Below, in pieces: positions 375 through 11,633 of a stretch of DNA of 33,574 nt. Positions within the stretch are counted from its first letter, which is position 1. The number at the start of each line of letters is the position of its first letter. This DNA is from a bacterium. Lineage in GTDB: Bacteria > JAHJDO01. The stretch lies in the NCBI GenBank assembly GCA_030652805.1, contig JAUSPT010000097.1, positions 1-33,574 of the forward strand, written 5' to 3'. The notes below the pieces were generated by a model. That model had not been told where the DNA came from and did not search any database. It saw nothing but the letters and a program-made list of their open reading frames with translations. A program made the translations under genes and the position numbers.

Positions 375-3300
375 ATGCCGAAAAGGACTGATATTCATAA
401 GATTTTAATTATAGGTTCCGGCCCCATAATTATAGGGCAGGCATGTGAGTTTGACTATTCAGGCACTCAAGCGTGTAGAGCGCTTAAGGAGGAAGGGTAT
501 GAAGTAGTGCTTGTAAACTCTAACCCTGCTACTATTATGACAGATCCTGGCACGGCTGATAAAACATACATAGAGCCGCTTACTGTAGAAAGTCTTGAAG
601 AAATTATCAAGAAGGAGAAGCCGGATGCGCTTCTTCCTAACCTGGGAGGGCAGACAGGACTTAATCTTGCATCCAGTCTTTACAGCTCAGGAGTATTGGA
701 AAGATATGGAGTTGAACTCATTGGCGTTAAAGCAGACGCTATTGAGCGTGGAGAAGACAGAATTGCATTTAAGAAGACAATGAATAAATTAGGCATATCT
801 CTTCCCAAATCTGATCCGTGTTATTCTGTGGAGGAAGCTGAAAATATAGCAGAGAAGCTTGGATATCCTGTTGTATTGCGGCCTGCTTATACATTAGGCG
901 GAACAGGAGGAGGAATTGCCTACAATGTAGAAGAGCTAAAAACTATTGTAACGAGAGGTCTTGCAGCAAGTCTTGTACATCAGGTTCTGGTTGAAGAATC
1001 TGTTTTGGGATGGGAGGAATTAGAGCTTGAGGTTGTAAGGGACCAGAAAAATCAGAAGATTACAGTCTGTTTTATTGAAAATATTGATGCTATGGGCATA
1101 CATACAGGAGATAGCTTCTGCTCTGCGCCTATGCTCACAGTTCCACAAGCTTTACAGAAGCGTATGCAGGAGATTTCTTATAAGATTGTTGATGCTATTG
1201 GTGTTATAGGCGGCACAAATGTTCAGCTTGCGCATAATCCTAAGGATGACAGATTAGTAGTAATAGAGATTAATCCCAGAACATCGCGCTCATCTGCTCT
1301 TGCTTCAAAAGCTACTGGATTTCCAATAGCCCGTATCTCTACAAAGCTTGCTGTTGGTATTACAATGGACGAAATTCCATACTGGAAGAAAGGAACTCTT
1401 GAGAAATATGAACCAAGCGGAGAGTATGTAGTAATTAAATTTGCGCGCTGGGCTTTTGAAAAGTTTCCGGGAGCCAAGGATATACTTGGAACACAGATGA
1501 AGGCTGTAGGCGAAGTAATGAGCATAGGAAAGACATATAAAGAATCCTTTCAAAAAGCTATCCGTTCTCTTGAAATAAACAGATGCGGACTTGGCAGAGC
1601 TAAGAACTTTAAAACACTTTCTCTTGAAAGACTGAAAGAGAAATTAGCAAACCCCTCCAGCGAACGCATTTTCCTGATGTATGAGGCGCTGCGCAAGGGT
1701 ATGAGTGTAGAAGAACTTTACCAGATGACCTACATCGGACGCTGGTTTATTAAAGAGATGAAGGAACTTGTAGAATTTGAGGAAGAATTAATCAAAAACA
1801 CATGGAAAAATCTTCCTGAGGGGAAATTGGCTAAAGCAAAGGAGTGGGGATTTTCAGATAAATATCTGGCAGGCCTTTTTGAAGTAAAAGAAAAAGAGGT
1901 CAGACAAAAGAGAATCGCCATAGGCAAATGCGGATGTTTTGAGGCCGTCCCTGTAAGCGGAGTAAAGAATGCTGCTTACTATTATTCCACCTACAACGGG
2001 AAAGATTCGGTTCCTGTATCATCAAAAAAGAAAATAATGATTTTAGGCGGCGGGCCTAATAGAATCGGACAGGGTATTGAATTCGATTATACGTGTGTGC
2101 ACGCAGCTTTTGCTTTGCGAGATGAGGGGTATGAGTCAATTATGGTTAACTGCAATCCTGAAACCGTATCTACTGATTATGACACTTCAAACAAGCTTTA
2201 TTTTGAACCTTTAACAGTTGAAGATGTCCTCACAATTTATGAAAAGGAGAAACCGGAAGGTGTTATTGTTCAGTTTGGCGGACAGACCCCTCTGAATATT
2301 GCTCAGGAATTAAAAAATAATGGTGTAAAAATTCTTGGGACAACACCTGAAAGCATACATCTTGCAGAGGATAGAGAGCGTTTTAGAGAAAAAATGATTG
2401 CTCTTAATATCCCACAGCCGGAGAGCGGCATAGCGCGTTCATTAGACGAAGCTCTTATAACCGCTAAGAAGATAGGATATCCTCTTATGGTACGCCCATC
2501 TTATGTGTTGGGAGGGCGTGGAATGCAAATTATTTATGATGAAGCTATGCTGAGAGATTATGCCATTGAAGCCATTCAGGTTAGTCCGGAGCATCCAATG
2601 CTTATTGATAGATTTCTTGAGCAGGCTGTAGAGGCAGAAGTTGATGCTATTTCCGATGGAGAAAATACATTTGTAGCAGCTGTTATGGAACATATAGAAC
2701 TAGCAGGTGTTCATTCAGGAGATTCTGCATGCGCCATCCCATCAAGAACTATTAAAAAAGAGCACTTAAATACAATAGAGAAATATACATCAGCAATTGC
2801 AAAAGAATTAAATGTCGTAGGTTTAATGAATATTCAATATGCAATATGTGATAATAAGGTTTATATACTGGAGGCTAATCCAAGAGCTTCACGCACAGTT
2901 CCGGTAGTTTCTAAAGTAACAGGTATTGCAATAGCCCATATAGCAACTCAAATAATGCTGGGTAAGAAGATCAGGGATTTTCCTGAACTAAAACCCTGCA
3001 AGCTTCCTTATGTAGCCGTTAAAGAAGCGGTTTTCCCGTTTAACATGTTTCCGGAAGTGGATCCTTTACTGGGGCCAGAGATGAGAGCTACAGGAGAGGT
3101 TATGGGTATTGCTGATACATTCGGACTTGCTTTTTATAAGGCAGCAGAAGCAGCCGGTTCAAAGCTTCCACTTAAAGGTAATGTGCTTTTGACAATAGCT
3201 GATAAAGACAAACCTTTTTTGATTCCCATTGCACAGCGGATTAAGAAACTTGGTTTTAGTATTTACGCTACAAAAGGCACAGCTGGATTTCTAAAAAAGA

Positions 3301-3590
3301 ATGGCATACAGAATACAGAAATAAAAAAATTACATGAAGGAAGGCCAAATATAACTGACGCAGTCAAAAACAGAGAGATCAATCTTATTATCAATACACC
3401 TGTTGGGCGTAGCGGGAAACATGATGATAGTTACATTCGCAGGACCGCAATACAGCACAGGATTCCCTATATTACTTCGATAACAGCTGCAGAAGCCAGT
3501 GTTGAAGGGATTGAATCTGTGACTAAAACTAGAAGTTTACCAAAATCTCTTCAGGATTATCTAAAAGAACTTGTTAGAACTAGAGAATAA
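375..3590 (+). CDS. carB: Carbamoyl-phosphate synthase, large subunit
   Basis: This is the synthase subunit of carbamoyl-phosphate synthetase, which makes carbamoyl phosphate from bicarbonate, two ATP and ammonia (normally channelled from CarA) for pyrimidine and arginine synthesis. At 1071 aa it is full length for the family (E. coli about 1073). The two homologous halves are visible. The first opens with GSGPIIIGQACEFDYSG near residue 14, and the second with GGGPNRIGQGIEFDY near residue 553. Each carries a biotin-carboxylase-like ATP-grasp fold (NPRTSRSSALASKATG in half 1, NPRASRTVPVVSKVTG in half 2). The C-terminal MGS-like allosteric domain starts near residue 933. AAGGAGG lies 5-6 nt upstream of the ATG. 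carA is not in the window. The gene heads a plus-strand operon with purF, DUF1846, purL and hisF. Confidence 0.97.
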   Translation: MPKRTDIHKILIIGSGPIIIGQACEFDYSGTQACRALKEEGYEVVLVNSNPATIMTDPGTADKTYIEPLTVESLEEIIKKEKPDALLPNLGGQTGLNLASSLYSSGVLERYGVELIGVKADAIERGEDRIAFKKTMNKLGISLPKSDPCYSVEEAENIAEKLGYPVVLRPAYTLGGTGGGIAYNVEELKTIVTRGLAASLVHQVLVEESVLGWEELELEVVRDQKNQKITVCFIENIDAMGIHTGDSFCSAPMLTVPQALQKRMQEISYKIVDAIGVIGGTNVQLAHNPKDDRLVVIEINPRTSRSSALASKATGFPIARISTKLAVGITMDEIPYWKKGTLEKYEPSGEYVVIKFARWAFEKFPGAKDILGTQMKAVGEVMSIGKTYKESFQKAIRSLEINRCGLGRAKNFKTLSLERLKEKLANPSSERIFLMYEALRKGMSVEELYQMTYIGRWFIKEMKELVEFEEELIKNTWKNLPEGKLAKAKEWGFSDKYLAGLFEVKEKEVRQKRIAIGKCGCFEAVPVSGVKNAAYYYSTYNGKDSVPVSSKKKIMILGGGPNRIGQGIEFDYTCVHAAFALRDEGYESIMVNCNPETVSTDYDTSNKLYFEPLTVEDVLTIYEKEKPEGVIVQFGGQTPLNIAQELKNNGVKILGTTPESIHLAEDRERFREKMIALNIPQPESGIARSLDEALITAKKIGYPLMVRPSYVLGGRGMQIIYDEAMLRDYAIEAIQVSPEHPMLIDRFLEQAVEAEVDAISDGENTFVAAVMEHIELAGVHSGDSACAIPSRTIKKEHLNTIEKYTSAIAKELNVVGLMNIQYAICDNKVYILEANPRASRTVPVVSKVTGIAIAHIATQIMLGKKIRDFPELKPCKLPYVAVKEAVFPFNMFPEVDPLLGPEMRATGEVMGIADTFGLAFYKAAEAAGSKLPLKGNVLLTIADKDKPFLIPIAQRIKKLGFSIYATKGTAGFLKKNGIQNTEIKKLHEGRPNITDAVKNREINLIINTPVGRSGKHDDSYIRRTAIQHRIPYITSITAAEASVEGIESVTKTRSLPKSLQDYLKELVRTRE

Positions 3591-3614
3591 CAATAAATAA
3601 AAGGAGCATAGAAA

Positions 3615-5006
3615 ATGGACGGGATATTCGGAGTTGCCCTGAAGAAGGATTGTCAGGAGGTTTTATTTTATGGAACAGATTATCATTCTCATTTAGGAAC
3701 AGAATATGGGGGACTGGCAGTATTGGGAAAAAGATTGGTTAGAAAGATTCACACAATCAGCGGAGAACAGTTTAAGAGCAGATTCTATGAAGATTATAAG
3801 AAAATGAAAGGGAAGTCAGGTATTGGCGTTATATCTACAAGAGAGGAGCAGCCCATATATCTAAATTCAAAGTTTGGGCACTTATGTATTGTCAGTAACG
3901 GCTTAATCACCAATTCGGATAGTTTGACTAATGATTTGCGCAGGCAGGGAATCTCATTTAGTGAAACAGCTAAACAAGGAGTAAACAGTACAGAACTGGT
4001 TGCAAAATTAATAAATCAGGGCAAGAGCTTAGTTCATGGAATAGAAAATTACTTTAAAAAAATTAAGGGCTCTTGTTCTATCCTGATATTACATAAAGAC
4101 GGTATCTATATTGCAAGGGATAAACTGGGATATACTCCTTTGGTTATAGGTAAATCTCATGAAGGCTGGGCAGTAACTACAGAAACTTCTGCTTTTTTTA
4201 ACTTAGGATTTAGTATAGAAAGATATGTTAAGCCGGGTGAAATACTGCTTTTAAAGTCCACTGGGTTTAAGGTTCTCAAAGAAGAGGAGCCGCATCAAAA
4301 GACGGATGCATTTTTATGGATCTATACGGGTTTTCCCGCATCGAATTATGAGGGTATAAATACAGAAGAAGTAAGAGAGCGCTGTGGAAAATTTTTGGCA
4401 AAAAGAGACAATGTTGAAGCAGATTTAGTAGCAGGAGTTCCGGACTCAGGAACTACGCATGCTATTGGTTATGCAATAGAATCAAGGATACCTTTTAGGC
4501 GTCCTCTGGTTAAATATAATCCCGGCTATGGCAGAAGCTACATTCCGCCGTCTCAAAGCATAAGAGACCATATTGCTAAAATGAAGCTGATTCCAATTAA
4601 AGAGATAATTAAAGGGAACAGGATCATTTTATGTGAAGATTCAATTGTAAGGGGTACTCAGCTTAAAAACTATACTATCCAGAAGTTGTGGGAAAGCGGG
4701 GCAAAGGAAATTCATGTCAGGGCTGCGTGCCCGCCTTTATTGTTTCCTTCTAAATTCGATTATTCTACCAAGAAAAAAGAAGAACTGGTCGCCAGACGTA
4801 CAATAAGAGCCTTAGAAGGCAAGGATATAAAAGATATGAGTGAATACATTGATTCCAATTCAAAAAAACACAAAAAAATGGTAGATTATATTGCCAAAGA
4901 ATTAGACGTTACTACCTTAAAATACCAAACCATTGAAGACATGGTAAAAGCAATAGGATTGCCCGAAGAAAAACTTTGTCTTTATGTATGGACAGGGAAG
5001 GTCTAA
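3615..5006 (+). CDS. purF: Amidophosphoribosyltransferase-like protein lacking the catalytic Cys
   Basis: PurF catalyses the first committed step of purine synthesis, PRPP plus glutamine (or ammonia) to phosphoribosylamine. The 463-aa protein keeps the order of a class II (Ntn) glutaminase domain followed by a PRTase domain. The PRPP loop reads [12 protein letters not shown] near residue 338. However, the N-terminus is MDGIFGV in place of M-C-G-I-x-G-V, so the nucleophilic Cys is Asp. The usual GHTRYST, with the Arg that binds glutamine, reads GIGVIST. The pocket Asp of the SDxE motif is also gone (NSTELV). The SNG of the oxyanion region remains. Met is not normally removed before Asp, so no free N-terminal nucleophile is expected. 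From memory a Bacteroidota subfamily begins MGGFFG and is similarly Cys-less. An ammonia-dependent enzyme is the likeliest reading. Its stop overlaps the next start by one base. Confidence 0.85.
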
Positions 5007-6523
5007 TGAATAAAAAAATAGGTTTTGATAATGAGAAGTATCTAAAGGAGCAAACTAAGGCTATTCTTGAGAGAGTTGAGAGAGCTGATAATAAACTGTA
5101 CCTTGAGTTTGGCGGAAAGCTTGTCTTTGACTTTCATGCTTCAAGGGTTCTACCGGGCTTTGATCCTAATGTGAAGATACGGCTCTTGCAAAAGTTAAAG
5201 GATAAGGCAGACATATTGCTCTGTATATATGCCGGTGATATTGAAAGGAAGAAAGTAAGAGCAGACTTCGGAATTACATACGATGCTGCAGTACTCAAAT
5301 CAATTGATGATTTAAAGGATTGGGGTATTGATATACTGGCAGTTGTAATAACACGTTTTGAAGATCAGCCGGCAACTATAATATTTAAGAATAAATTAGA
5401 GCGCAGAAACATAAAGGTTTATACCCATACATTTACAAAAGGATATCCTACGGATGTGAATTTAATTGTAAGTGATAAAGGTTATGGAGCAAACGAGTAT
5501 ATTGAGACTAAAAAACCTCTTGTTGTAGTTACCGGGCCAGGCCCCGGCAGTGGGAAATTAGCTACATGTCTTTCTCAATTATATCATGATTATAAGAGAG
5601 GGATGAAAAATGGATATGCAAAATTTGAAACATTTCCTATATGGAATCTGCCGCTTAAACATCCGGTGAATGCGGCTTATGAAGCAGCAACAGCAGATTT
5701 AAGGGATTTTAATATGATAGATTCCTTTCATCTTGAAGCATACAACAAGGTAGCTGTGAACTATAACAGGGATGTAGAGGTATTTCCTGTGCTTAAGAGA
5801 ATATTGGAGAAGATAACCGGATCTGAGTCAATATATAAGTCACCTACTGATATGGGTGTAAACAGAGCTGGTTTTGGAATTATAGATGACGAAATAGTAA
5901 AACACGCTGCAGAGCAGGAAGTAGTAAGAAGATATTTTAGATGTGCCTGCGAATATGTAATGGGTCTTGTGGATAAGGAAACTGTGCAAAGGGTGGAGCT
6001 AATTATGGAGGATCTTAATCTTAAGCCGGAGGATAGGCTGGTGGTTATGCCAGCACGAAAGGCTATTGAAGATGCTCAACAAAGAGGAGAGGGTAATGAA
6101 GGAGTCTTTTGCGGTGCGGCAATAGAATTAAAAGACGGCTTAATCATTACAGGGAAAAACTCCTCTCTTATGCATGCAACATCAAGTCTTATTCTGAATG
6201 CTGTAAAAGAGCTGGCGGAAATTCCCGATAAGATACATCTTCTGTCTCCGAACATAATAGATTCCATAGGTAATCTTAAAAAGAATATTTTAAATACGAA
6301 AGCAGTGAGCCTGAATCTGGAAGAAACCTTAATTGCCCTTTCTATAAGCGCAACTACGAATCCAACCTCTCAGCTGGCTATGGAGAAGCTGGGGGAACTT
6401 AAGGGCTGTGAAATACATATGACACATATTCCAACTCCCGGTGATGAAGCAGGGTTAAGAAAATTGGGGGTTAATACTACCAGCGACCCCGATTTTTCCA
6501 CAAAGACACTTTTTGTTGAATAG
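5006..6523 (+). CDS. DUF1846 (UPF0371) family protein
   Basis: The 505-aa product matches my memory of DUF1846/UPF0371 from its opening [12 protein letters not shown] and the block [21 protein letters not shown]. The block [20 protein letters not shown] is a P-loop-like glycine-rich segment, and [12 protein letters not shown] lies further on. Structures of the family exist, but I know of no established function. The frame is open from 4976, but the ATG at 5006 is preferred. It overlaps the purF stop as TAATG, is preceded by GGAAGG, and gives the N-terminus typical of the family. The tight coupling to a glutaminase-dead PurF, within a carB/purL/hisF operon, points to a role in nucleotide or amide-nitrogen metabolism. 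That is an inference from context. No membrane segments or signal peptide are visible. Confidence 0.85.
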
Positions 6524-6573
6524 AGTAATTTTTTTAGAATAGGAATAAAAATTTAAAAAAAGGAGGGCGCATA

Positions 6574-8814
6574 ATGGAGAGTACAGTTAAAGTTGATGTG
6601 GAAGCAGCAAAAGGTTTAGGACTTACTGAGCAGGAGTTTGCCCAGATCAAAAAACTTTTGGGCAGAGAGCCAAATTTTACAGAATTAGGGGTTTTTTCAG
6701 CTATGTGGAGTGAACATTGCAGTTATAAGAATTCACGCAAGTTGTTCAAACTTTTTCCAACCAAAGGTAAACAGGTGTTAATTGGTGCAGGTGAGGAAAA
6801 TACAGGAATTGTTGATATAGGCGACGGATTGGGCGTTGCCTTCAAGATAGAATCACATAACCATCCTTCGGCAGTGGAACCATTCGAGGCTTCAGCTACA
6901 GGTATAGGCGGATGTTTGAGGGACATATTTACAGTAGGAGCAAGGCCTGTTGCAGTGTTAGGTGCATTGAGATTCGGAAGTTTAGATAATGAAAAAGTTA
7001 AATTCTTATTTAAAGAGGTAATCAGGGGACTGGCTCATTATGCTAACACTGCAGAGATTAATGCCGTTGGTGGTGACAGCTATTTTGACGAAAGTTATGA
7101 AGGGAATCCTTTGGTTAATGCTTTTGCCGTAGGTATTGTAAAACATAAAGATATTGCAAGAGGCGCTGCGTCTGGAATAGGAAATCCCATATATTACATA
7201 GGAGGAGACACAGGCAGAGACGGGGTAGGTGGAGCGAGTTTTGCGTCTCAGGAAATTACTGAGGAATCTGCTTCTGATACGAGCAGCGTTGCTATAGGTA
7301 ACGCAGAGCTCGGGAAACGCTTGAGAAAGGGGTGTCTGGAACTAATAGAAAAAGGCCTTATTGTTGGGATGCAGGATATGGGAGCTGCCGGGCTTACTTG
7401 CTCATCCTGCGAAACAGCCTCAAGAAGCGGGACTGGTATTGAGATAGACGTTGCCTTAGTTCCTCAAAGAGAAAAAGGAATGACTCCTTATGAAATCCTT
7501 TTGTCTGAATCTCAGGAAAGAATGCTTGCTATATTAAAAGACGGAAAGGAAAAAGAGGCATTAGATATATTGAAAAAATGGAACATCAACGCGGTAAAAA
7601 TCGGGAAGGTTACAGATGATAAAATGATGAGAGTTAAAGAAAACGGGATAGTGGTTTGCGAAATTCCGCCACAGGCTCTTACAGAAAGAGCGCCTTTGTA
7701 TGATAGAGATGCTAAAGAGCCTTCTTACTTAAAAGATGCTCAAAATCTGGATAGAAAATCCATAATCGAACCTGACGATTTCAATAAAGTGTTGTTGCAG
7801 CTGCTTGATTCTCCGACTATTGCCAGCAAAGAATCAGCATATAAAAACTTTACTGCTATAGACAAGGATGAAGTTATAGTAGGAGCAGGTTCAGACGCAG
7901 CTGTAGTTAAAATTAAGGGCACTAAAAAGGCTTTAGCAATAAGTGTGGATTGCAACGGGAGATATTGCTACCTGAATCCTTATAACGGTGCAATGATGGC
8001 GGTTGCAGAGGCAGCAAGAAACATAGTCTGTTCTGGTGGAAGACCTCTTGCTATTACTGACGGCTTAAATTTTGGCAGTCCGATGAAACCTGAAAATTAC
8101 TGGCAGTTTAAAAAATGCATAGAAGGACTTTCCTCCGCGTGCAGGGCTTTAGACACACCTGTTGTCAGTGGTAATGTAAGTTTCTACAACGAGAATCCTA
8201 AAGGAGCGATAGATCCGACCCCTATGGTAGGCATGGTAGGTTTGATAAACGATGTAAATAAACATGTTACCCAGGAATTCAAGAATGAAGGTGATATAAT
8301 AGTTCTTTTAGGTGAAAACAAGGCCGACCTTTCTGGGAGTGAATATTTGTATCTTATTCACAATCAGAAAAAAGGTAATCCTCAGATAGATATACAGACA
8401 GAGAAGTCTGTTCAGAAAGCATGTCTTGAGGCAATTGAATCAGGTATTATTAATTCTGCTCATGATTGTTCGGAAGGTGGCCTGTCCGTAACTTTGACTG
8501 AATCATGTATCTCAAATTTAAATAAAATGCTTGGTGCTGTAATAGAATTGGATGGCTTAAAAAACAATGATATAAGAATGGATGAAATTTTATTTGGAGA
8601 AGCGCCTTCCAGAATAGTGGTTTCTCTAAATAAGGATAAAATGGAGCTTCTTGAAAAAATAGCTCAGAAACATTCCATTGCATATACTATTCTCGGGGAA
8701 GTTAGTGGAGAAAATCTGGCAATCAAAGACAATCGAGAAAGTATAATAGATATTTCTGTTAAAAAACTAAGCAATACATGGAGGAACGCAATTCCTTCAA
8801 GATTAGAAAAATAG
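6574..8814 (+). CDS. purL: Phosphoribosylformylglycinamidine synthase subunit PurL
   Basis: This is the ATP-dependent synthase subunit that converts FGAR to FGAM in purine biosynthesis. The 746-aa length matches the small PurL of Gram-positives and archaea (about 740 aa), which works with separate PurQ (glutaminase) and PurS, and not the 1300-aa fused enzyme. Hallmarks are the N-terminal MWSEHCSYKNSR, IESHNHPSAVEPFEASATG near residue 93, GMQDMGAAGLTCSS, and the second-half AHDCSEGGLSVTL near residue 630. These correspond to two AIRS-like N and C domain pairs. AAAGGAGGG precedes the ATG by 6-7 nt. Neither purQ nor purS occurs in this window, so the usual ammonia supply partner is not co-encoded. 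Confidence 0.96.
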   Translation: MESTVKVDVEAAKGLGLTEQEFAQIKKLLGREPNFTELGVFSAMWSEHCSYKNSRKLFKLFPTKGKQVLIGAGEENTGIVDIGDGLGVAFKIESHNHPSAVEPFEASATGIGGCLRDIFTVGARPVAVLGALRFGSLDNEKVKFLFKEVIRGLAHYANTAEINAVGGDSYFDESYEGNPLVNAFAVGIVKHKDIARGAASGIGNPIYYIGGDTGRDGVGGASFASQEITEESASDTSSVAIGNAELGKRLRKGCLELIEKGLIVGMQDMGAAGLTCSSCETASRSGTGIEIDVALVPQREKGMTPYEILLSESQERMLAILKDGKEKEALDILKKWNINAVKIGKVTDDKMMRVKENGIVVCEIPPQALTERAPLYDRDAKEPSYLKDAQNLDRKSIIEPDDFNKVLLQLLDSPTIASKESAYKNFTAIDKDEVIVGAGSDAAVVKIKGTKKALAISVDCNGRYCYLNPYNGAMMAVAEAARNIVCSGGRPLAITDGLNFGSPMKPENYWQFKKCIEGLSSACRALDTPVVSGNVSFYNENPKGAIDPTPMVGMVGLINDVNKHVTQEFKNEGDIIVLLGENKADLSGSEYLYLIHNQKKGNPQIDIQTEKSVQKACLEAIESGIINSAHDCSEGGLSVTLTESCISNLNKMLGAVIELDGLKNNDIRMDEILFGEAPSRIVVSLNKDKMELLEKIAQKHSIAYTILGEVSGENLAIKDNRESIIDISVKKLSNTWRNAIPSRLEK

Positions 8815-8833
8815 AAAGAAAGGGGATATAACA

Positions 8834-9604
8834 ATGCAACAAGTAAAAGTAATTCCATGTCTGGATATAAAAGACGGACGAGTAGTTAAAGGCGTAAAGT
8901 TTGTTGAATTACAAGACGCACGTGATCCTGTAGAAGCAGCAATTGCTTATTGTAACGCAGGCGCAGATGAACTTGTTTTTTTAGATATAGCTGCCTCTGT
9001 TGAGACAAGAGCCACACGCCTGGATTGGGTAAAGAAGGTAAAAGAGGTAACCACTGTACCCTTTTGTGTTGGTGGAGGCATAAGGAATTTAGAGGATATG
9101 CAAACTCTTTTTGATCTCGGAGTAAACAAAGTATCTATTAATACATCTGCTGTTAAAAATCCCTCTTTAATCAAGGATGCTGCTGAAAAATTTGGCAAAG
9201 AAAGAATTGTTGTTGCTATTGACGGGAAGAAAAATCCACCTGAGGATAGCTGCCCGAGATTGGAGCTCCTAATTATGGGTGGAGGGGAGTCGACTGGTCT
9301 GGATGTGGTTGAATGGGCAAAAAAGGTGGACCAGTTAGGCGCGGGCGAAATTCTCCTGACCAGCAAGGATGCGGATGGTACAAGAGAAGGGTACGATATT
9401 GAGATGACCAAAGCAGTAGTAGAAGCAGTCTCAATTCCTGTTACTGCCTCAGGCGGTGCAGGAACATTAGAGCATCTTTATGAAGTCATAGTCCAAGCTA
9501 AGGCAGCCAATGTGTTATGTGCTTCAGTATTTCATTTTGGAGAAATCACAATCCCTGAGACAAAAAAATATCTGAAGGAAAGGGGTATAGCTGTCCGGAT
9601 GTAA
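8834..9604 (+). CDS. hisF: Imidazole glycerol phosphate synthase cyclase subunit HisF
   Basis: The 256-aa TIM barrel uses ammonia to turn PRFAR into imidazole glycerol phosphate plus AICAR, and so links histidine and purine synthesis. The catalytic Asp residues are present: CLDIKDGRVVKG near residue 9 (Asp11) and AIDGKK near residue 130. The phosphate-binding VGGGI, ASGGAG and ASVFHFGEI segments are also there. Comparing by memory with Thermotoga HisF, the ammonia-gate residues Glu46, Lys99 and Glu167 appear conserved, but the Arg5 equivalent is Lys. The loop after the second Asp is a few residues longer than usual. hisH and all other his genes are absent from the window. Its place as the last gene of a purine/carB operon suggests that its AICAR output may matter here. 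Confidence 0.94.
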   Translation: MQQVKVIPCLDIKDGRVVKGVKFVELQDARDPVEAAIAYCNAGADELVFLDIAASVETRATRLDWVKKVKEVTTVPFCVGGGIRNLEDMQTLFDLGVNKVSINTSAVKNPSLIKDAAEKFGKERIVVAIDGKKNPPEDSCPRLELLIMGGGESTGLDVVEWAKKVDQLGAGEILLTSKDADGTREGYDIEMTKAVVEAVSIPVTASGGAGTLEHLYEVIVQAKAANVLCASVFHFGEITIPETKKYLKERGIAVRM

Positions 9605-9683
9605 TGGATAAAAACAAATTTATTTAAAATTATACAAGCCATGCATATCTGACGAGGATATTACATATGCGGAACTTTTGTAT

Positions 9684-9710
9684 GGGCACAATATTTTGTG
9701 CCCTTTTTTC
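9684..9710 (+). terminator. Rho-independent terminator after hisF
   Basis: A perfect 8-bp stem GGGCACAA (9684-9691) / TTGTGCCC (9696-9703) encloses a 4-nt loop and is followed at once by TTTTTTC. This is a strong intrinsic terminator about 80 nt after the hisF stop. It closes the carB-hisF operon and means the ABC-F gene start must lie downstream of it. Confidence 0.88.
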
Positions 9711-9752
9711 TTTATGGTTTGGGGTGGATGGGGCATGGGGGAGGCAGGCAAG

Positions 9753-11633
9753 ATGTTACAGATAAAAGATCTTAGTAAAAATTTTGGAAATAGGCCGTTA
9801 TTCAGGGATTGCTCTCTGTTTGTGAAAAGTGGAGAGAGGATTGCTTTAGTTGGAGCAAATGGTTCGGGAAAGACGACCCTTTTCAGGATAATTATGAATA
9901 ACGAACCTTATGATACGGGAGAGATAATCTTGCCGAATAATGTAAGGGTGGGTTTTTTGCCGCAGGAGATAGATGCAGTAAAAGGCACCACTCTACTTAC
10001 TGAGGTTATGTGCTGTTGGCCGGAAATAGGGAAGCTGGAGAATAAGATAGAAAGATTAGCGTCTAAACTTGCGGAGACAAAAGGGCCGGCACAGGAGCAA
10101 ATTCTTCATGATTATGGAAAGGCACAGTCCAGTTTTGAAGCGCTGGGCGGATATAATCTTGAATATCAGGCTAAGAAGATATTATTCGGCCTGGGTTTTA
10201 AGGAAAGGGACCTTTCAAGGGCAACAGATGTGTTTAGCGGCGGCTGGCAGATGCGCATTGCTCTGGCTAAACTGCTTTTGAACCCGCCTGAGCTTATGAT
10301 GCTGGATGAACCGACTAACCATTTAGACCTGGAATCACTCCTCTGGCTGCAGAATTATCTGCTTGCTTATAAAGGCACATTGATATTTACGTCGCATGAC
10401 AGAGACTTCATCAATCAGGTAGTAACAAGGGTTATCGAGATAGATGCGGCTAACCTTGTAAAGTATAATGGAAACTACGACTACTATCTGAAAGAAAAAG
10501 ACAATCGCGAAGAAATATTACTTGCTGCCCGTAAGAACCAGGAACGAAAGGTTGAACAGACACAGAAGTTTATCAATAGATTCCGCGCTACTGCGAGCCG
10601 GGCAAGATTGGTACAAAGCAAGATAAAAGCGTTAGATAAAATGGAAAAGGTAACGGCGCCAAAGAAGACAAAGCATGTACGTTTTTGCTTCCCGCAACCT
10701 CTACGCAGCGGTCATGAGGTAATAACGATTAAGGATCTTTATAAAAGCTATGGTGATAATAAAGTCTATGAAGGTGTTGATCTCAGTATAGGTCGGGGTG
10801 ATAAAGTCGCCCTTGTTGGATCAAACGGCGCGGGAAAGTCCACGCTCTTAAAAATTTTAGCCGGAGTACTGGAGATTGATAAAGGCTCTCGAATAATTGG
10901 GCATAATGTAAATAACGGATATTATCCTCAGCACCGGCTGGATATATTGAACACGCATAATACATGTCTTGCAGAGATAGAAGACGTGTATTACAGTGGC
11001 CGCCAGACGGAGATAAGAAAATTATTGGGTAGCTTTCTATTCTCGGGCGATGATGTGTATAAAAAAGTATCCGTCTTAAGTGGCGGAGAGAAAAGCAGAT
11101 TGGTATTGGTTAAGATACTGGCCAATCCTCCAAACTTTTTACTCATGGACGAACCTATAAATCATCTTGATATTCCCTCACGGGATATTCTCATTGAGGC
11201 ACTGAGTGAGTTTACGGGCACGCTTTGTTTTATAAGCCATGACGTATATTTTATAAGGAAAGTAGCTAATAAAATCATTGAGATAAAGGATGGAAAACTG
11301 AAAATTTATCCCGGAGGCTATGATTATTATATTCACAAAAGAGAGGTGGATGAGAAGAACAGACGGCTTGAAGGGGAGTCCAAACTCGACGACAGAAGAA
11401 ATTCCGCAAAGTCAGACCGCAAAAGAAATATTTACATACAAAAAACCGAGCTGGACACACTCGGGGAAAAATTTGCGGATACAGAAAAAGAATTGGTTGA
11501 ATTATCTGTGCGGTCGGAAGAACTAAACAGGCTATTATCTGACCCCGCGATATACAAGAACAATGCTTTTATCTCTCTGGCCAAGGAACAGAAGTCACTT
11601 AAGGCAAAGATAGACGAACTTACAGTTAAGTAG
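9753..11633 (+). CDS. ABC-F family ATPase (Uup/YdiF-like)
   Basis: This 626-aa cytosolic protein has two ABC ATPase domains and no membrane segment, as in the ABC-F translation factors (EttA, Uup, YdiF, YfmR). Domain 1 has Walker A GANGSGKTT near residue 34, signature FSGGWQMRIALAK, Walker B with LDEPTNHLD, and switch SHDRDF. Domain 2 has GSNGAGKST, LSGGEKSRL, MDEPINHLD and SHDVYF. The last 80-100 residues are charged and coiled-coil-like, resembling the Uup/YdiF C-terminal domain. The frame is open from 9678, but that codon falls before the terminator. ATG 9753 has GGGGGAGG 8 nt upstream and gives the canonical MLQIKDLSKNFG start. In domain 2 the usual Thr of EPTNHLD is Ile. A role on the ribosome is likely from the family, but the specific target is unknown. 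Confidence 0.92.
   Translation: MLQIKDLSKNFGNRPLFRDCSLFVKSGERIALVGANGSGKTTLFRIIMNNEPYDTGEIILPNNVRVGFLPQEIDAVKGTTLLTEVMCCWPEIGKLENKIERLASKLAETKGPAQEQILHDYGKAQSSFEALGGYNLEYQAKKILFGLGFKERDLSRATDVFSGGWQMRIALAKLLLNPPELMMLDEPTNHLDLESLLWLQNYLLAYKGTLIFTSHDRDFINQVVTRVIEIDAANLVKYNGNYDYYLKEKDNREEILLAARKNQERKVEQTQKFINRFRATASRARLVQSKIKALDKMEKVTAPKKTKHVRFCFPQPLRSGHEVITIKDLYKSYGDNKVYEGVDLSIGRGDKVALVGSNGAGKSTLLKILAGVLEIDKGSRIIGHNVNNGYYPQHRLDILNTHNTCLAEIEDVYYSGRQTEIRKLLGSFLFSGDDVYKKVSVLSGGEKSRLVLVKILANPPNFLLMDEPINHLDIPSRDILIEALSEFTGTLCFISHDVYFIRKVANKIIEIKDGKLKIYPGGYDYYIHKREVDEKNRRLEGESKLDDRRNSAKSDRKRNIYIQKTELDTLGEKFADTEKELVELSVRSEELNRLLSDPAIYKNNAFISLAKEQKSLKAKIDELTVK

Follow-up and report, generated by a model that had tools for sequence, protein, structure and literature searches.

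An operon of synthases without glutaminases and the case for ammonia-utilising biosynthesis in uncultured bacteria

Introduction

Can a bacterium supply nitrogen to its pyrimidines, purines and histidine through synthases that have parted from their glutaminases? In this article, I will discuss this question for the window, by which I mean the whole contig JAUSPT010000097.1 (C97; 33,574 nucleotides) of a bacterial draft assembly (GCA_030652805.1; GTDB lineage JAHJDO01), in which positions 375-9604 hold five genes on the plus strand, carB, purF2, DUF1846, purL and hisF, in that order. In the textbook description of amidotransferases, ammonia is derived from glutamine and channelled to the synthase via a tunnel, and activity driven by ammonia is usually taken as a laboratory artefact. 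An earlier note on this DNA had pointed out that CarB, PurF, PurL and HisF are each the ammonia-using half of a glutamine amidotransferase, that all four stand here without a glutaminase and that this looked like more than chance, and it offered as hypotheses an ammonia-centred regulon or a shared alternative ammonia donor. After comparison with the rest of the genome, with its genus and with more distant bacteria, an ammonia-utilising biosynthesis operon is the best explanation of these sequences and, in my judgment, probably the right one.

The synthases and their companion

The purF2 gene (3615-5006) encodes a protein with a destroyed glutaminase site and an intact site for phosphoribosyl pyrophosphate (PRPP), which scores 212 bits against the TIGR01134 equivalog model, under the family cut-off of 350. 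Aligned to Bacillus subtilis PurF, it has Asp (position 2) in place of the catalytic Cys1, a deletion of the H-x-R-Y segment and Ser in place of Asp127 of the glutamine site, which bears out the earlier observation that its built-in glutaminase had lost its key residues, and it keeps the PRPP loop EDSIVRGT and the PDSG motif. The same pattern runs through its relatives, at least 587 of which were found in one collection scan: in the 80 for which motifs and neighbours were counted, spread over many phyla, Cys1 occurs in none, the HxRY segment is missing from all 80, DSI-V/I-RGT and PDSG are conserved in 80/80, and RGTT in the PRPP loop has become RGTQ in 80/80 vs 0/9 ordinary PurF proteins. Judged by these motifs, PurF2 is a coherent paralogue family. 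Its dead glutaminase domain is predicted to be folded still, because the AlphaFold model of the window protein (predicted local distance difference test, pLDDT, 88) is closest over its full length to B. subtilis PurF (best Protein Data Bank match 1gph; template-modelling score, TM, 0.82). At the 80 loci, the neighbours of PurF2 include carB (10), purF (8), purM (5), guaA (5) and DUF1846 (4), and the gene order carB-DUF1846-purF2 is found at three Omnitrophota loci (L137, L156, L157). The Escherichia coli PurF mutant in Cys1 still uses ammonia, and the archaeal PurF', which like PurF2 has no N-terminal Cys and lies near purine genes, has been proposed to be an ammonia-dependent PRPP aminotransferase (PMC3261824); the archaeal protein accompanies a normal PurF, however, whereas PurF2 of the window is the only PurF homologue of its genome, and the likeness drawn here is one of description.

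CarB (375-3590) is a complete large subunit, matching NF003671 with 1540 bits over 1-1057, with two ATP-grasp halves and an MGS domain (PF02786/PF02787/PF02142). The idea that it belongs to an ammonia-specific clade was rejected, its nearest relatives including the CarB of genomes that have CarA elsewhere. E. coli CarB forms carbamoyl phosphate from ammonia (PMC6245113), and carbamoyl-phosphate synthase I is likewise an ammonia-using enzyme (PMC6022934), but the latter is a single chain that needs N-acetylglutamate, whereas CarB of the window is a normal large subunit of the bacterial kind and lacks CarA.

PurL (6574-8814) is of the small type (746 aa; NF002290, 923 bits, cut-off 648 passed), and a fully supported branch (100/99) sets the PurL proteins without PurQ apart, the second copy of the genus genome G003 lying on their side. 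HisF (8834-9604; TIGR00735, 327 bits, cut-off 295 passed) falls in an ammonia-type clade without HisH that has 100/100 support and in which the gate residue Arg5 has become Lys in 6/6 proteins. In HisF of the genus, Asn stands in place of Asp98; the idea that this change marks the ammonia type was rejected, the Omnitrophota and Clostridia-bin copies retaining Asp. Compared with glutamine-dependent PurLQS and HisFH, PurL and HisF of the window are full-length homologues of the synthase subunits that stand in separate, well-supported clades, in a genome without PurQ or HisH, and window-type and sister glutamine-type copies are 50% (PurL) and 58% (HisF) identical. Corynebacterium glutamicum offers a precedent for ammonia-based histidine synthesis in vivo without HisH, since it can dispense with hisH for growth and an E. 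coli strain deleted for hisH is complemented by its HisF (PMC3896937); C. glutamicum still has a functional hisH, however, and the window genome has none.

The fifth gene (5006-6523) encodes a DUF1846/UPF0371 protein (NF010184, 786 bits; PF08903+PF20921), with solved relatives 7f00 and 3bh1 and a P-loop-like GPGPGSGK, the AlphaFold model of which is poor (pLDDT 43). DUF1846 proteins have been described in terms of hemin binding in Streptococcus pneumoniae (PMC9238395) and of essentiality in Clostridioides difficile (PMC12548448), and the candidacy of this protein as the ammonia donor was dropped, no support for it having been found.

The missing glutaminases

The window is one of the 102 contigs of a 2.0-Mb draft genome (G000; 95.6% complete, 2.2% contamination), and all claims of absence rest on genome-wide profile searches with PF00117 (CarA, HisH and other class-I glutamine amidotransferases, GATases), PF13507 (PurQ) and TIGR01134 (PurF), for which the controls were positive in 14/14 reference genomes, and with PF06418 (PyrG). 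In the window genome, PF00117 matched only TrpG, GuaA and a weak cobyric-acid-synthase-like protein, and neither carA nor hisH; PF13507 found no PurQ there or in G002 and gave matches in G003 and G004; and TIGR01134 matched only PurF2, GlmS and an asparagine-synthase-like protein, with no Cys-containing purF. G002 (96% complete) is close to the window genome (synonymous divergence, dS, of the operon 0.03-0.20), and carA, purQ, hisH and Cys-purF were likewise not found in it, PurF2 being the sole PurF homologue of both. Ordinary copies of these four genes elsewhere in the genome, which according to the earlier note would have reduced the arrangement to a scattering of subunits, were not found in either of these genus members, both 96% complete, an outcome in favour of its interpretation. 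PurS was sought by tblastn with the sister-species protein, which gave no match in 134 kb of the window genome, a genome-wide search not having been made.

Genes for downstream steps are kept, namely purM and purN (C7), hisI-hisA-hisB (C32) and pyrR-pyrB-pyrC and pyrK-pyrD (C29), and the genome has one HisF, that of the window, and one HisA. TrpG and GuaA, which remain, have a catalytic Cys and His-Pro-Glu, and MCG stands at the start of GlmS and AsnB; because these four glutamine-dependent enzymes are retained, glutamine is still in use, and the switch away from it is selective and not total. Four synthases out of four without a glutaminase therefore stands for CarA, PurQ, HisH and Cys-PurF, and does not extend to TrpG, GuaA, GlmS and AsnB. 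The window genome also holds a 730-aa glutamine synthetase, GlnN-like (type III) by its size and a partial match to the models that passes no cut-off, which adjoins a short NadE of ammonia-dependent size (240 aa; L271, 1351-4265); a type I GlnA like that of G003 is not among its genes.

Two sets of enzymes in the genus and beyond

The genus, of which four other genomes (G001-G004) were compared, includes a sister species from cold-seep sediment (CSMAG_1431, an isolate name in a cold-seep catalogue of metagenome-assembled genomes; PMC10491686). G003 (91% complete) holds both a glutamine-type and an ammonia-type set: contig C135 has the order purF (Cys)-pyrG-gdh-carB-purF2; C151 has the end of purF2 and then DUF1846-purS-purQ-purL'-hisH-hisF', followed by the genes that flank the operon in the window; C108 has glnA, pieces of glutamate synthase and carA before the start of a second carB; and C119 has a window-type purL-hisF pair directly after guaA. 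By synteny, purL-hisF of G000 and G002 occupy the exact site of purS-purQ-purL'-hisH-hisF' in G003. The carA of G003 (L070, 73-1167, minus strand) is interrupted by two in-frame stops, located in the linker that precedes its glutaminase domain, and is either a young pseudogene or the product of a sequencing error. G004 (90%) has purS-purQ and purL'-hisH-hisF' on its contig C9, and no window-type PurL, carA or Cys-purF was found in it; G001 (62%) has carB, purF2 and DUF1846, with a purL-hisF pair beside ruvB; and G002 has an intact 104-kb contig with ruvB, not purF-pyrG, upstream of gdh-carB. Because G003 carries both, the glutamine-type and ammonia-type sets look like alternative isoenzymes, and the simplest history would be that the ancestor had both sets and that losses differed between its descendants, the window lineage having kept only the ammonia type.

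Outside the genus, the single-contig Omnitrophota chromosome CP070655.1 (1.14 Mb) has adjacent purL and hisF, 78% and 84% identical to those of the window, together with purF2, hisB, hisA and hisI; its only PF00117 match is TrpG, with no HisH, and the PF13507 search found no PurQ. Directly upstream of its purF2 lies a 321-aa GuaA without a glutaminase domain (L140, 8983-9948; TIGR00884, 303 bits, cut-off 339), which is another ammonia-type half, whereas GuaA of the window species still has both domains. A bin with the label Clostridia has guaA-purL-hisF together (PurL 83%, HisF 78%), and PurQ and HisH were not found in it. Across 16 related genomes, PurQ is missing from 4/4 of those with the window type of PurL (58-93% identity) and from 0/12 of the others, all of which have it (Fisher ~5.5e-4; one of the four PurQ-less genomes is a genus member, and without it the value is 2.2e-3). 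With this association and the full support of the PurL and HisF clades, the suspicion that the arrangement is more than chance has proved sound. Because carA, purQ, hisH and Cys-purF were not found in the window genome or in G002 and because the whole arrangement or parts of it recur in relatives, an ammonia-centred operon is well supported by comparative evidence; the shared alternative donor of the same hypothesis stays conjectural, and DUF1846 gained no support in that role.

Organization of the operon

The five genes are separated by gaps of 24, -1, 50 and 19 bp, the purF2 stop codon TAA and the DUF1846 ATG sharing one base (TAATG), and a purine-rich ribosome-binding site precedes every one of the five starts. 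A consensus scan placed a sigma-70-type promoter (TTGTCA-18-TACAAT, with an extended -10) at 217-246, which is kept in G000, G002 and G004 and present with substitutions in G003, where the coding flanks differ, and an intrinsic terminator (GGGCACAATATTTTGTGCCC-T6, an 8-pair stem with a T run) closes the operon after hisF at 9684-9703. Some 160 bp ahead of carB are conserved across four species of the genus, although the sequence beyond them is in places unrelated. Because of the gaps, the stop/start overlap, the promoter, the terminator and this conserved region before carB, 375-9604 is best read as one transcription unit, in agreement with the operon described in the earlier note, the five genes lying in one direction where it had placed them. 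Selection on all five is strongly purifying (ratio of non-synonymous to synonymous substitution, dN/dS, 0.03-0.16), with values of 0.05-0.06 for carB and 0.03-0.06 for purF2.

Within the conserved region, the four-species comparison delimits a leader of ~130 nt (247-374; mean column identity 84%) that contains a CCCAT...ATGGG hairpin (~252-273) and ends in the carB ribosome-binding site AAGGAGG. No family was matched in an Rfam search of the leader, and a known riboswitch was rejected; the consensus fold is weak, with only four compensatory pairs in four sequences, and was judged unconvincing. A regulatory role of the leader is possible. Bases 1-200 of the window are unlike the sister species and contain repeated GGGACATTTT motifs as at insertion-sequence ends, and they resemble the border of a mobile element. 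On the other side, 3' of the terminator, lies a gene for an ABC-F ATPase (9753-11633; open reading frame 9678-11633, start likely at ~9753), which trails the operon in G000 and G002 and is not at that place in G003.

Discussion

In the proposed mechanism, the lineage would have lost the glutaminase partners of carbamoyl-phosphate synthase, PRPP amidotransferase, formylglycinamidine ribonucleotide (FGAM) synthase and imidazole-glycerol-phosphate synthase, and CarB, PurF2, PurL and HisF would accept free cytosolic NH3 and form carbamoyl phosphate, phosphoribosylamine, FGAM and imidazole-glycerol phosphate, the operon in this way supplying the synthesis of pyrimidines/arginine, purines and histidine. 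From their sequences and genomic setting I infer that all four enzymes work with NH3 fast enough in the living cell. Direct uptake of sediment ammonium would be enough for this model, and its most speculative element is that glutamate dehydrogenase (GDH) may help to set or buffer the NH3 supply.

Could the glutaminase subunits simply sit in unassembled or unbinned contigs? The window genome is in 102 contigs and 95.6% complete, its contig has 374 bp ahead of carB and opens with sequence that does not resemble that of the sister species, and a few gaps would hide all of the glutaminases because the glutamine-type genes of G003 cluster in few loci; however, a second 96% genome is without the same genes and has ruvB upstream of gdh-carB on its 104-kb contig, purL-hisF of both genomes stand at the site of the G003 glutamine set, and the single-contig Omnitrophota chromosome has PurL and HisF of this type but neither PurQ nor HisH, and I consider a draft artefact quite unlikely. 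Glutamine could also still be the donor if TrpG, GuaA or another GATase served HisF, PurL or CarB in trans, and TrpG and GuaA do remain with their catalytic Cys and His-Pro-Glu, but the docking of HisF-HisH and PurL-PurQ is specific, TrpG or PabA in place of HisH has been judged unlikely (PMC3896937), the gate residue Arg5 of HisF has become Lys in the clade, with Asp98 replaced by Asn in the genus, and PurF2 has its own dead domain, all of which leaves a borrowed glutaminase very improbable.

The two other alternatives concern the role of single proteins, and I would give each of them a low probability, if not so low as the preceding pair. PurF2 might act in regulation, or bind PRPP as an enzyme of some other pathway, with purines coming from salvage or from phosphoribosylamine formed non-enzymatically, as its coexistence with ordinary PurF in other genomes and the invariant RGTT to RGTQ change in its PRPP loop (80/80) could suggest; against this, G000 and G002 have no other PurF homologue and keep purM-purN and purL, its PRPP motif is intact and its neighbours in several phyla are carB, purM, purF and guaA. 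GDH might in turn be a dedicated donor that deaminates glutamate and passes NH3 to the operon enzymes, and its gene is the best donor candidate: in G002 and G003 it immediately precedes carB, and in a genome with the label Euryarchaeota (L149; GDH 62% identical) it lies upstream of purF2. In the window, however, gdh is not beside carB, other sequence standing there at the contig end; GDH as a rule assimilates ammonia, the promoter immediately ahead of carB is conserved separately from gdh, and I know of no channel from GDH to the operon enzymes.

Some observations weigh against an ammonia-utilising operon itself. The genus genomes are drafts of 62-96% completeness, and the downstream genes accounted for in the window genome are the pur, his and pyr genes named above. 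Ordinary PurF accompanies PurF2 in most of the other genomes examined, and the main role of PurF2 may differ there. Similarly, CarB beside PurF2 in other genomes usually coexists with a CarA encoded elsewhere, and, as far as its sequence tells, CarB is not specialised, being marked only by the genome-wide absence of CarA. Lastly, CTP (cytidine triphosphate) synthase is missing from 4/5 genus genomes, which ammonia use does not explain: PF06418 found PyrG only in G003, next to the Cys-purF, and not in G000, G001, G002 or G004, where the lack of any match also led to the rejection of a truncated PyrG as a fifth member of the set, and CP070655.1 has no PyrG-type GATase match to PF00117.

All the enzymes of the operon belong, or nearly belong, to known families; their concerted loss of glutaminases and grouping in one operon are, as far as the literature was searched, undescribed. 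One may tentatively go further and suppose, although I find it doubtful as a whole, that uncultured bacteria of more than one phylum have switched much of their nucleotide and histidine nitrogen supply to free ammonia via a dedicated and partly mobile set (purL-hisF, purF2 and carB, and in Omnitrophota also the GATase-less guaA) and make CTP without PyrG, which would imply either that an enzyme not yet described forms CTP or that cytidine must be supplied. If an ammonia-utilising operon is the correct reading, free ammonia could serve purines, pyrimidines and histidine alike as their physiological source of nitrogen, and a meaning would be found for PurF2, a family of many phyla that resembles amidophosphoribosyltransferase and is unable to use glutamine. 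It would also offer researchers natural glutaminase-free HisF and PurL enzymes for study.

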